Shown one piece after another: positions 32,506 through 35,683 of a stretch of DNA of 40,838 bases; the first letter of the stretch is position 1, and every line of letters begins with the position of its first letter. Location of the stretch: NCBI GenBank assembly GCA_003213115.1, contig QCNU01000002.1, forward strand, positions 81,017 to 121,854. The letters run 5' to 3'. A program made the translations under genes and the position numbers. Under the pieces are notes generated by a model. It did not search any database, had not been told where the DNA came from, and saw only the letters and a program-made list of their open reading frames with translations. This DNA comes from Pelagibacteraceae bacterium AG-426-L23 (GTDB lineage: Bacteria; Pseudomonadota; Alphaproteobacteria; Pelagibacterales; Pelagibacteraceae).

Positions 32506-33378
32506 ATGAAGAAAAGTTTATTTAAAGGCTCATTATTTACTATTGGAGCCTCACTTTGGTGGGGAGTGATAGGTGTATTATATTTTAATTTTGTCTCTTT
32601 CGCTTCAACTTTAGAATTAACAATACATAGAACTATTTGGACTGCTTTATTATTAGTGATTACAACCTCATACTTTTCAAGATGGAATGAATTTATTAAA
32701 ATTATAAGTAAAAAAATTAATATACTCATTTTTTTCATAACCGGAATTTTAATTTCAATTAATTGGTTTACGTGGTTGTACGCTGTTAAAACAAATAATC
32801 TATTAGACTCTGCGTTGGGGTATTATATTTTTCCAATATTAAGTGTTTTTTTTGGTATTATATTTTTAAAAGAAAAATATAATAAGAACAAAATTATATC
32901 TATTATTTTAGTAGCCGCTGCCCTAGTTTACTTATTAATTAAATTAGGTGAAATTCCATGGATAGGTATTACTGTGGCTATTTCATTTAGTTTATACGGT
33001 TTGATAAGAAAAAAAATTAAAGTTTCTTCTGATATAGGGTTGCTCATAGAAACATTATTAATATCACCAATAGCTATATTTTTGTTTGTTTTTTTAATTA
33101 AAAATAATATGAATATCTTTTCTTTAAGTGAGCCTCTTTTATCTTTTTATTTAATCTGGGCTGGACTTATAACTTTAATTCCTCTTTTTTGGTATATAAA
33201 GGGGTTTGAGCTTATAGGTATCGGTCCAGCAAGTATGATCTTTTTTTTAACTCCAACTGCACAATTTTTTTTAGGATTATATTATTTTAGCCAACCTTTA
33301 ATTTTAGATAAATTAATTTCTTTTATATTTATTTGGTTAGCTGTAATTATTTATTTAAACGAATTGCGCAAAGAGTAA
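32506..33378 (+). CDS. rarD: RarD-type EamA/DMT-superfamily transporter
   Basis: Inner-membrane protein of 290 residues with about ten hydrophobic helices in two EamA repeats. The RarD subgroup is indicated by GASLWWGVIGVLYF, ELTIHRTIW, NWFTWLYAVKTNNLLDSALGYYIFP (read around NWFTWLYAV) and GPASMIFFLTPTAQFFLG, which carry its conserved helix ends. RarD homologues are called chloramphenicol-sensitive proteins, but the physiological substrate is unknown. The start follows a 60-base gap after tRNA-Ser; the last 28 bases overlap the end of thiV, convergent. Confidence 0.87.
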   Translation: MKKSLFKGSLFTIGASLWWGVIGVLYFNFVSFASTLELTIHRTIWTALLLVITTSYFSRWNEFIKIISKKINILIFFITGILISINWFTWLYAVKTNNLLDSALGYYIFPILSVFFGIIFLKEKYNKNKIISIILVAAALVYLLIKLGEIPWIGITVAISFSLYGLIRKKIKVSSDIGLLIETLLISPIAIFLFVFLIKNNMNIFSLSEPLLSFYLIWAGLITLIPLFWYIKGFELIGIGPASMIFFLTPTAQFFLGLYYFSQPLILDKLISFIFIWLAVIIYLNELRKE

Positions 33379-34802
33379 ATTGATATAATCAATAATGGTA
33401 TAATTAAAGATACGCAAAATGAAATAAATAGTAAGTTTGTTTTAATAAAAACAGAAAAATTATCAATAAATATTAAATTACCAACCAAGATACTGCTTTT
33501 GAAATTTGGACTTGGAAAAAATAATAATCCCAATATAAGACCACTTGTTATAGAAATTCCTGCAAGTTTTGGATTAATTTTCTTTTTAAAAAAACCATAA
33601 AATATTGTAATAACTGCAGAACAACATAATAAATCTGCTAATAAAAATAAATATAAAATACTGTATCCTTTAGATGCTAAAACAAAAACTAATAAACTCA
33701 GTAATAAAATTATAAAATTAGTTTTACTCTTAATTTTTTTAGTTCCTAATGATTTATTAATTTGATCACTGTTTACAATAATTAAACTTGATATGGCATT
33801 AATTAAAGTATCTATAGTACTTAAAGTTAATGAAAGTGCTAAAATTAATATACCCAATACTGTAATAGAGCTTTTGTTGCTAAGCATTAAATCAAAGAAT
33901 GCGAGATCTGGAACTACTTTTGAATTTAAAGAATAAGATATTAGTCCTGAATATCCCATCCAAAAAACAATTAAAAAAATAAATATTGAAGAAAAAACCA
34001 AGCTTAATTTTAAAATGGAATTATTTTTTGCAGAAAAGACTCTTTGCCAATTTCCTTGGTGAAATAAATTTGTTGCTGCAACAGCAATAAAAAATGTTAA
34101 TCCCGAAGTATAATTAGGTAAATAATTTTTATTTATTAAATTAGGTGAATTTTGTTTAATTAATTCATAGCTAGATAAATCTATATTTCCTAAAACTATA
34201 AATACTGAAACTACAATAATTAATGTGATGAAACAAAATTGATATTTATCTGTTATAACTGAAAGTTTAAATCCACCTCTTAATATATAAAGTAAACAAA
34301 TAGTTAGTATAATGCCTGAAGTTATCCATAATGGGACTTGAGATATAAATTTTAATAAAGATGCAATAGCCGTGACTTCAGCTATCAAAAATATTGTTAA
34401 GTAAAATAATATCAAAAATAAACATAATTTAAGAATTTTTATCCCAAATCTTTTTTTAATAAATTCAGTTAATGTAAGACCATTTGGAAATTCTTTTCTA
34501 ATTTTCGGTCCAAAATTATACAGAAATAGCATAGGTGCAGCTGTGCCTAATGCATAACCAATCACAGCGCCTATACCGCCCCAAGTGGCTGCAGATGAAG
34601 GCCCAAATAAAATCCATGCTCCTAGAGCTGAAGCTGTTAAGCTAGCAGTTAAAGAGAATAAGTTTTCATCCCTATCTCCAACAATATAATTTCTATTGTT
34701 ATAAATTTTTTTAGTATTTAAATAGCCTAATCCTATAAAAAATAATCCTACTATAATTATAGTTGTAAGTGATATTTCTATAGACAGGTATGTTTTTTCC
34801 AT
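33351..34802 (-). CDS. thiV: sodium:solute symporter, predicted thiamin-pyrimidine (HMP) or thiamin transporter ThiV
   Basis: A 483-residue SSS-family Na+ symporter with about 13 hydrophobic segments. The N-terminal part has SLTASLTASALGAWILFGPSSAATWGG (read around SALGAWILFGPSSAA), the Na+/substrate region of the family. A TPP aptamer stands immediately upstream, so uptake of a thiamin-related compound is very likely. In Candidatus Pelagibacter a TPP-riboswitch-controlled SSS gene named thiV is proposed to import the pyrimidine precursor HMP, which those cells require. Specificity for HMP versus thiamin cannot be read here. It overlaps rarD by 28 bases, tail to tail. Confidence 0.85.
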   Translation of the reverse strand: MEKTYLSIEISLTTIIIVGLFFIGLGYLNTKKIYNNRNYIVGDRDENLFSLTASLTASALGAWILFGPSSAATWGGIGAVIGYALGTAAPMLFLYNFGPKIRKEFPNGLTLTEFIKKRFGIKILKLCLFLILFYLTIFLIAEVTAIASLLKFISQVPLWITSGIILTICLLYILRGGFKLSVITDKYQFCFITLIIVVSVFIVLGNIDLSSYELIKQNSPNLINKNYLPNYTSGLTFFIAVAATNLFHQGNWQRVFSAKNNSILKLSLVFSSIFIFLIVFWMGYSGLISYSLNSKVVPDLAFFDLMLSNKSSITVLGILILALSLTLSTIDTLINAISSLIIVNSDQINKSLGTKKIKSKTNFIILLLSLLVFVLASKGYSILYLFLLADLLCCSAVITIFYGFFKKKINPKLAGISITSGLILGLLFFPSPNFKSSILVGNLIFIDNFSVFIKTNLLFISFCVSLIIPLLIISIYSLRNSFK

Positions 34803-34868
34803 AATTCCCTTACTGAATTACCGGTCAGGTTCATCGGGTATGATCTCAGTCATTTAAGACACCCCGTG
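34803..34868 (-). promoter_or_regulatory. TPP riboswitch (compact THI element) controlling thiV
   Basis: The minus-strand leader carries the THI-box core in order: CGGGGTGTC, a short P3 (GTC-TTAAAT-GAC), ACTGAGAT, ATACCCG pairing back to CGGG, then GAACCTGA and a short arm CTGA...TCAG before AAGGGAATT and the ATG. The AGGG serving as the thiV ribosome-binding site lies inside the conserved 3' end of the aptamer, so ligand binding should block translation directly. No separate terminator hairpin fits. About 66 bases is small for this class. Confidence 0.93.
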
Positions 34869-34872
34869 ACAA

Positions 34873-34902
34873 CTTATATATTGAATTAAACAAACGAGTC
34901 AA
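34873..34902 (-). promoter_or_regulatory. predicted promoter of the TPP riboswitch-thiV transcript
   Basis: On the minus strand, TTGACT (34897-34902) is followed by overlapping -10 candidates TATATA/TATAAG at 34873-34880, with spacers of 16-18 bases. The start would fall near 34866-34868, at the very 5' edge of the aptamer. The same 45 bases separate thiV from the divergent binding-protein gene; for that strand TTGAAT (34881-34886) and TAAAGT (34904-34909) give only a weak candidate. Confidence 0.5.
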
Positions 34903-34915
34903 ATAAAGTTAATGC

Positions 34916-35683
34916 ATGTTTAGAGTAGTTTTAACATTATTTTTGATGGTTTTTTTAACAAATGCCAATGCTGAGTCTAGATTACAAAAAGTCTTAAAAA
35001 GTGGAGAATTAAGAGTTGGTACCACTGGTGACTGGGACCCAATGTCAATGAAAGATCCATCTACAAATAAATATAAAGGATTTGATATAGATGTAATGAA
35101 CGAATTAGCAAAAGATATGGGTGTAAAAGTTAAATTCGTACCTACAGATTGGAAGACAATTGTCTCTGGAATTACAGCTAATAGGTATGATATTTCAACT
35201 AGTGTAACTAAAACTCCTAAAAGAGCTGAAGTGGCTGGTTTCACAACCACTTATTACAAATATGGTACAGTTCCTTTAGTGCTTAAAAAAAATTTAAAAA
35301 AATTTTCGACTTGGGACTCATTGAACAATAAAAATGTTACTATAGCAACTACTCTTGGAACATCTCAAGAGGAAAAAGCGAAAGAATTTTTTCCTAAATC
35401 AAAATTAAAATCAATTGAAGCTCCTGCTAGAGATTTTCAGGAAGTTTTAGCTGGAAGAGCAGATGGAAACATAACTAGTTCTACAGAAGCTAATAAATTA
35501 GTAATTAAATATCCTCAGTTAGCAATAGTTCCTGATGGTGAAAAAAATCCAGCCTTTTTAGCAATGATGGTTGCAAAAGATGATAAAGTTTGGAATGATT
35601 ATGTTAGTAAGTGGATTAAAAGCAAAAAATCTTCAGGTTTCTTTAAATCTTTACTAGCAAAATACAATCTTAAAAGTTTGTAA
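34916..35683 (+). CDS. amino-acid-type ABC substrate-binding protein (family 3), cyclohexadienyl dehydratase-like
   Basis: Periplasmic two-lobed protein, 255 residues, signal peptide 1-19 (ending ANA). SBP family 3 features: [49 protein letters not shown] (Arg103, the usual carboxylate ligand) and VLAGRADG. Sequence around [15 protein letters not shown] and the TxxxEA motif (Glu191) is closer to PheC-type cyclohexadienyl dehydratases than to common amino-acid receptors. The Asp that normally binds an alpha-amino group is Ser188. The permease gene downstream still favours a transport role. Ligand unknown. Confidence 0.85.

Follow-up and report, generated by a model that had tools for sequence, protein, structure and literature searches.

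A TPP-derived aptamer variant before the SAR11 gene thiV lacks the canonical pyrophosphate-contacting bases

The TPP riboswitch (Rfam RF00059) is known for its highly conserved binding site, and SAR11 is among the ocean's most abundant bacterial clades; if such a clade keeps one half of the site and deletes the other, either TPP is being recognised there without its canonical pocket or evolution has swapped the ligand. The residues highly conserved among solved TPP aptamers are U39-A43, U59, G60, C77, G78 and A80, and G60, C77 and G78 interact with the metal that coordinates the pyrophosphate (PMC3764141). C77 and G78 are also reported to hydrogen-bond the pyrophosphate (PMC7824784), a GCG motif is marked elsewhere as pyrophosphate-binding (PMC9544697), and E. 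coli thiM is reported to require the pyrophosphate in order to switch (PMC4112796). Sequestering of the ribosome-binding site inside an aptamer core is published as well and is commonest for TPP, preQ1 and SAM-I (PMC2258182). In the 'direct translation attenuation' TPP switches of that study (Barrick and Breaker), the purine-rich 3′ end of the aptamer is the ribosome-binding site, as in the element reported here; the class is defined by the location of that site, and the part of the paper on which we draw describes no altered pocket. A further sensor of a thiamin pyrimidine precursor, the very compact HMP-PP riboswitch (thiS motif, PMC6478431), has another fold, is embedded in a terminator and mostly turns thiazole genes ON.

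That SAR11 thiV (SAR11_0811) has a TPP riboswitch in its leader is likewise already known: the switch is listed in PMC2704228, where SAR11 RNAs are said to tend to be short, and discussed in PMC11452348, PMC4260697 refers to a drawn structure (Suppl. Fig. S6c), and thiV stands among the TPP-controlled genes of three metagenomes in PMC2211319. By gene context, the switch of PMC2704228, PMC4260697 and PMC11452348 is the same element as ours. In strain HTCC7211, HMP uptake drops within an hour, which the authors consider consistent with a thiV switch, and the same 2024 paper states that ligand specificity and activity of the SAR11 switch remain to be confirmed (PMC11452348). The portions of these accounts that we compared, to which the supplementary figure does not belong, do not mention missing pyrophosphate bases or a missing P1; nor was such a statement for SAR11 found in the open literature outside subscription papers and supplements, which leaves priority unestablished.

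The window analysed here is a stretch of 40,838 nucleotides from Pelagibacteraceae bacterium AG-426-L23 (contig QCNU01000002.1), in which a sequence-only reading had noticed a very compact TPP-type aptamer on the minus strand directly upstream of thiV. Comparison of 501 bases with 4227 Rfam families matched RF00059 at 41.5 bits (E 8e-7), with the model aligned over its full length, and the position, strand and type given by that reading were right: the element is a genuine TPP-type aptamer. The match to the TPP covariance model is thus clear by E-value, yet its score stays under the Rfam gathering score of 54.3, which counts against membership in the TPP class, and a standard Rfam scan therefore lists nothing there. 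It is the single RF00059 match at E up to 10 in this genome (84% complete). The RNA from 34866 to 34806 reads CGGGGUGUCUUAAAUGACUGAGAUCAUACCCGAUGAACCUGACCGGUAAUUCAGUAAGGGA, followed by AUU and the thiV ATG; counting from the outermost P2 base to the ATG gives 67 bases, where about 66 had been estimated. A covariance-type model of the variant, R1, gives the window aptamer 83.5 bits, a score to be read with the fact that its training set includes the window sequence.

The gene behind the aptamer encodes a 483-aa sodium:solute symporter (Pfam SSF, E 3.1e-13), so that by family and the ThiV literature (PMC11452348) its earlier designation as the SAR11 candidate HMP importer holds. With RF00059 the element shares P2, the UGAGA T-loop, P3, the CCUG...AGGGA P4 and the L5 loop UAAU, as well as a downstream thiamin-precursor transport gene and a 3′ end overlapping the Shine-Dalgarno sequence (SD); in contrast to RF00059 it has no detectable P1 and lacks C77-G78 and the facing A61-U62. 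Homologous as it is to RF00059, we call it a TPP-derived variant instead of a standard member, because it lacks C77-G78 and a detectable P1 and scores below the Rfam cut-off. Its features are collected in Table 1.

Table 1 Features of the thiV leader in the window, with the evidence for each.
Feature	Position	Strand	Evidence
Variant TPP-type aptamer, outermost P2 base to last A of AGGGA, 61 nt	34806..34866	-	Rfam, 41.5 bits
P2 5′ strand, C+GGGG	34862..34866	-	Outer pair: five standard pair types, 11/64 unpaired
P2 3′ strand, CCCG	34835..34838	-	Pairing table of 64 sequences
P3 5′ strand, GUC	34858..34860	-	UA/CG/UG and CG/UG/UA pair types
P3 3′ strand, GAC	34849..34851	-	Covariation in 64 sequences
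J3/2 T-loop UGAGA, pyrimidine-binding element, intact	34844..34848	-	231/231 loci; role from PMC3764141
P4/P5 arm CCU-G-A-CCGGUAAUUCAG-U-A-AGG, without the canonical AU/CG internal-loop bases	34808..34829	-	Infernal gaps opposite AU and CG
N of compensating pair N-N′ (A here)	34825	-	A-U 19, U-A 45, n = 64
N′ of compensating pair (U here)	34812	-	A-U 19, U-A 45, n = 64
L5 tetraloop UAAU, intact; docks on P3 in solved TPP aptamers	34817..34820	-	PMC3764141
AAGGGA: P4 3′ strand, following GA, thiV Shine-Dalgarno	34806..34811	-	Sequence
thiV start codon ATG	34800..34802	-	Open reading frame
thiV coding sequence, sodium:solute symporter, candidate HMP importer	33351..34802	-	Pfam SSF
-10-like TATATA/TATAAG, predicted start ~34866-34868	34873..34880	-	By-eye reading; clade-wide enrichment

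RF00059 matches occur in 168 of 197 Pelagibacterales genomes and only 10 of the 168 pass 54.3 bits, so that at the Rfam cut-off the element goes unseen in most SAR11 genomes. We read 231 loci, 223 parsed automatically and 8 by eye. Of these, 111 (L001-L111) were found with RF00059 and come from 111 of the 168 genomes (the 30 best-scoring, further picks and the window's own); the other 120 (L112-L231) come from an exact-pattern scan of GTDB genomes with at least 120 matches, in organisms that partly repeat those of the first set. Among the matches listed, 119 are labelled Pelagibacterales and one Rhodospirillaceae. In the scan pattern only N, N′ and R of the arm were left free, and invariance of the remaining arm bases in L112-L231 is therefore by construction and no evidence. 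The same pattern gave 0 matches in viral contigs. For covariation, 64 of the 109 unique variant cores were aligned (alignment A1), leaving aside L046, L094, L164, L215 and L221, five visually read variants whose P2 has CUC where the others have CCC (a G.U pair); all 109 parsed cores start with GGGGUG.

In the 64 distinct variant aptamers, 98.7% of 959 cells are paired in the Rfam-type structure, against 91.9% in shuffled sequences. P2 cells are paired in 96.3% and P3 cells in 100%, both with covariation, which bears out the three-pair P3 (GUC/GAC) described from the letters. The outermost P2 pair is A-U in 28 sequences, U-A in 12, C-G in 9, G-U in 3, U-G in 1 and unpaired in 11, and it is one of the pairs with two-sided changes, together with two of the three P3 pairs and one P4/P5 pair. 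Three of five covariation measures exceed all 500 shuffles and two lie within them (152/500 for the count of double-change pairs, 125/500 for further pair types). Since the aligned sequences are related, the covariation is support, not proof, for P2, the 3-bp P3 and one P4/P5 pair. The minimum-energy fold of the window RNA up to the ATG consists of P2, P3 and P4/P5. It is, however, no stronger than shuffles (z -0.84, 39/200 as good), and with 30 nt more downstream sequence the minimum-energy fold keeps P2 and P3 and loses P4/P5; both results speak against the explanation that we prefer below.

The Rfam-type register of P4/P5 fits 64/64 sequences, and N-N′, which alone varies in it, is the only informative pair. 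N-N′ is A-U in 19 of the 64 and U-A in 45, never a mismatch, and is likewise A-U or U-A in all 194 parsed variants; as it is always complementary, the bases beside the lost loop form a pair. The swap corresponds to one or two events on the ThiV tree and so weighs little as repeated evidence. The arm had originally been drawn as CTGA/TCAG, a pairing that fits the window and all 19 A-type sequences and whose fourth pair fails in 45/45 of the U-type; as a conserved pairing of the arm it is rejected, failing in 45/64. The helix CUG:CAG was also considered as a competing ON-state pairing that frees the SD and is not supported (probability 0.07 in the A-type, 0.00 in the U-type).

The pyrimidine half of the binding site is complete: the T-loop UGAGA is present in 231/231 loci, and AACCUG, UAAU and AGG are retained, with U59-A80 and G60 of P4 kept in CCUG and AGG. 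The other half is gone. Infernal's alignment of the window aptamer to Rfam deletes AU on one side of the arm and CG on the other, which by sequence correspond to A61-U62 and C77-G78 in E. coli thiM numbering; what remains is a helix almost without interruption, containing two mismatches, G60.R and an invariant C.A. This arm, in the form CCUG-N-CCGGUAAUUCAG-N′-R-AGGGA, stands in 79/80 RF00059-found loci of genera g1 (12/12), g3 (66/67) and g6 (1/1), letter-identical apart from N, N′ and R. CG is kept in 30/111 RF00059-found loci: 23 of family f2, two of g2, four of g5, and L047 of g3. The pyrophosphate-contacting bases and the outer stem are lost in most of the relatives examined. The architecture had been called minimal, which holds for the shortened arm and the tiny P3; the change goes beyond minimality in that the pyrophosphate-binding bases of J4/5-J5/4, among the most conserved of the class, are missing, and this loss puts in question the assumption that the aptamer senses TPP.

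Outside Pelagibacterales, the J5/4 CG is kept in 93/95 aptamers from the class and phylum (55 top-ranked and 40 low-ranked in the match lists; checked both with a regular expression and visually). Among the 27 best variant-model matches outside the order, some of which repeat the 95, 26 keep CG and L344 has UG. The CG-less cases outside Pelagibacterales are L287 (G214), L310 (G406; decayed by eye) and L344 (G303). Within the order, CG is also absent from two g4 loci, L005 and L012, as a second, different collapse of the pocket; the arm of L005, CCUG-GAUUG-GUAAUU-CAAUU-AGGGA, forms a helix that lacks CG and is interrupted only by a single bulged base.

P1 was sought in six registers as complementarity between the stretch preceding P2 and the stretch following AGGGA. 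In the main register, a four-pair run occurs in 4/149 unique variant leaders, against 4.2 in shuffles, whereas in the same register it occurs in 36/84 leaders of other bacteria, against 6.1 (84 of the 95 outside-order loci were parsed). The five other registers give 1 to 4 four-pair runs in variants against 1.2 to 6.0 shuffled, no register of the six putting the variants even one leader above shuffles, and f2 leaders have 0/12 unique in the main register. P1 is thus not detectable in the variant clade, as the claim of almost no P1 had it; one register stands against this, with scattered pairs at 1.99 versus 1.84 of 5 and 8/500 shuffles as high. A -10-like hexamer lies 10-18 bases before P2 in 116/159 unique leaders against 59.3 in shuffles, an excess that is no probability because the leaders are related. 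Its position and the usual spacing place the transcript start within ~5 bases of P2, and the RNA includes the outermost P2 base, since this base and its pairing partner change in concert. A start at the first bases of the aptamer, as proposed for the window, agrees with TATAAG/TATATA at 34873-34880, which by usual spacing predicts a start at ~34866-34868; against it, a sigma-70 scan of the window found no minus-strand promoter for the thiV leader. The sole sigma-70-like site in the leader lies at 34854-34882 (+), overlapping the aptamer DNA (0.8 expected by chance), and points to a divergent SBP_bac_3 binding protein at 34916-35683 (+).

The double role of AGGGA as aptamer end and ribosome-binding site, noticed from the letters, is matched across the clade: the ATG follows AGGGA by 2-5 nt in 205 of the 221 leaders, canonical aptamers among them, whose ORF could be read, and in the window the SD lies inside the conserved aptamer core, as in direct translation attenuation. 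No terminator-like site was found within 34780-34960, so the element does not share the terminator-embedded aptamer of the HMP-PP riboswitch, and direct occlusion without an expression platform stands to that extent; as a mechanism, occlusion is likely by analogy with the published cases, and since such control within an aptamer is published, the mechanism put forward earlier is not new. In ligand-free folding of 155 unique variant leaders, the SD is unpaired with probability 0.40 in the 28 A-type and 0.57 in the 127 U-type leaders, and P4 is formed with 0.62 and 0.28, respectively. An SD partly open without ligand is what an ON state needs. The A-type, to which the window belongs, has P4 already more formed than not, which counts against our preferred explanation.

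R1 matches 287/397 Pelagibacterales genomes at E 0.001, weaker canonical relatives included. In a class-wide search, 64/385 genomes match at E 1e-4, and three of the 385 reach at least 79 bits: G000, G003 and G005, Pelagibacterales of g1 and g3. The remaining class-wide matches score at most 44.3 bits, including two g2 Pelagibacterales with canonical arms at 33.7. ThiV was searched in 26 genomes at E 1e-20. ThiV gave no match in 18 of the 20 f1 genomes that lack an R1 match; in the other two, G191 and G421, a ThiV piece begins at the contig start, so that its leader is absent from the contig. In G164 and G440 (g6), the aptamer is present and ThiV was not found at that threshold. thiC was not found in 15/15 SAR11 genomes (G093 being 61% complete), five of them with the variant, including the window's (84% complete), and is present in 13/14 control genomes.

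The thiamin-related gene downstream of the variant encodes an SSF/ThiV symporter, and in L050 (g6) an NMT1-like protein. In L050, the variant aptamer precedes a gene for an NMT1/THI5-like protein instead of thiV (611-1543), which is likely another HMP-type uptake gene; at two further variant loci, the downstream ORF starts MKIKLA. Canonical aptamers precede SSF symporters in L002 (g2), L028 (g5) and L047, and in f2 a canonical aptamer precedes thiB in the two of 23 loci scanned, of which L006 lies over the TIGR01276 equivalog cut-off and L010 under it and over the TIGR01254 subfamily cut-off. On a quick ThiV tree with long-branch warnings, built without f2, ORFs shorter than 300 aa, L004 and the MKIKLA proteins, the symporters behind canonical aptamers form one side. 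Nine fixed differences (L001 positions 59, 60, 66, 138, 242, 248, 268, 299 and 326; H248 to D) separate 5 sequences behind canonical from 166 behind variant or collapsed aptamers, the five including two pairs of near relatives. Position 248 adjoins the phenylalanine-histidine discussed in PMC11452348, and L001 ThiV carries F247-H248 by eye. ThiV of L001 is 51-52% identical to that of L095 and 50% to that of L206, and the altered arm is alike in all.

The thiV switch should decide when SAR11 imports HMP, a precursor that it cannot make. We give roughly even chances to the reading that the element is a clade-specific TPP riboswitch variant acting as a translational OFF switch for thiV, with TPP still its likeliest ligand. 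On this account, as the -10 enrichment and the missing P1 complementarity suggest, the RNA would start within a few bases of P2, so that P1 would never be made. The pyrimidine ring of the ligand would be held in the conserved UGAGA T-loop. Binding would draw the P4/P5 arm onto P3 through L5 UAAU and lock CCU to AGG, and since AGG lies in the SD, a ligand-locked P4 would keep ribosomes off; in the absence of ligand, P4 is computed to be weak and the SD about half open. The pyrophosphate pocket would have been remodelled, with the pyrophosphate of TPP gripped in a new way. TPP is the end product of the HMP thought to be imported by ThiV, and as such the natural signal. Its difficulty is that C77 and G78 bond the pyrophosphate and that pyrophosphate is needed in thiM, so that their plain loss should cripple TPP binding. 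The pocket might instead be only mis-aligned in an ordinary TPP riboswitch, another P5 register restoring the pyrophosphate site: G60, U59, A80 and L5 are kept, Infernal aligns the whole model, and the internal loop would be larger with a P5 of just two pairs (GG/UC). Yet CG is wholly absent from the variant arm's 3′ half, and the N-N′ co-change (19 A-U, 45 U-A) puts these bases in a helix, though through one or two evolutionary changes only; we consider mis-alignment very improbable.

A change of ligand, to HMP, HMP-P, HMP-PP or TMP, would let the same SD occlusion report HMP import directly; we regard it as a real possibility, if not the one to bet on. It would explain the loss of just the pyrophosphate half: only the bases that touch the pyrophosphate and the ones opposite are lost, the other key elements being kept, and the altered arm is identical across ThiV proteins about 50% identical. 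Where the gene following the variant was scanned, it is of HMP type (ThiV-like SSF, and NMT1/THI5-like in g6), the canonical arm stands before thiB in the f2 loci scanned and, in g2, g5 and L047, before a distinct ThiV lineage marked by the nine differences, and thiC was not found in the 15 SAR11 genomes. Against this, the argument is drawn from sequence, TPP is the expected feedback signal, and one ancestral event could account for the distribution (4 changes for four states, the minimum being 3). In g2, g5 and L047, moreover, it is a canonical aptamer that stands before a ThiV-type symporter, so that the gene by itself demands no new ligand. The broader proposal of a new TPP-descended riboswitch class, in which a precursor or part-phosphorylated ligand controls HMP import and ligand class and ThiV subtype change together, is put forward tentatively and at somewhat less than that strength. 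The leader might also be a relic or constitutive, with a P4/P5 sequence that serves ribosome binding or RNA stability and responds to no ligand. Its fold is no stronger than shuffles, the HTCC7211 authors interpret their uptake data as pointing to one HMP transport system with constitutive expression (PMC11452348), and predicted diatom TPP aptamers proved unresponsive to thiamine (PMC9544697). The T-loop present in all loci read, the covarying P2 and P3, and L5 UAAU, none of which an SD needs, make such a relic quite unlikely.

Several loci stand apart from the general pattern. Four Pelagibacterales genomes have second RF00059 matches, at five places and 18-26.4 bits, all taken as chance, L332 among them; the other four (L330, L331, L333 and L334) look by eye like coding sequence. 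L206, labelled Rhodospirillaceae (AG-919-A04), carries the variant aptamer, its ThiV forming a long branch within the SAR11 tree, and may be a mislabelled record or a transfer. In L047 (G174 C17, 611-2171), a g3 genome carries a canonical CG aptamer and a divergent ThiV of canonical type; aptamer type and transporter type travel together in this one case, and it is possible that leader and gene were transferred together, or that the assembly is in error. In L004 (g5), a TPP aptamer that keeps CG stands directly before a gene for a TorF-family putative porin (Gcw_chp, 1577-2248), and the product encoded from 1577 in L029 (g5) resembles that porin by eye; the position of the gene behind the aptamer suggests a thiamin-related role for this porin.
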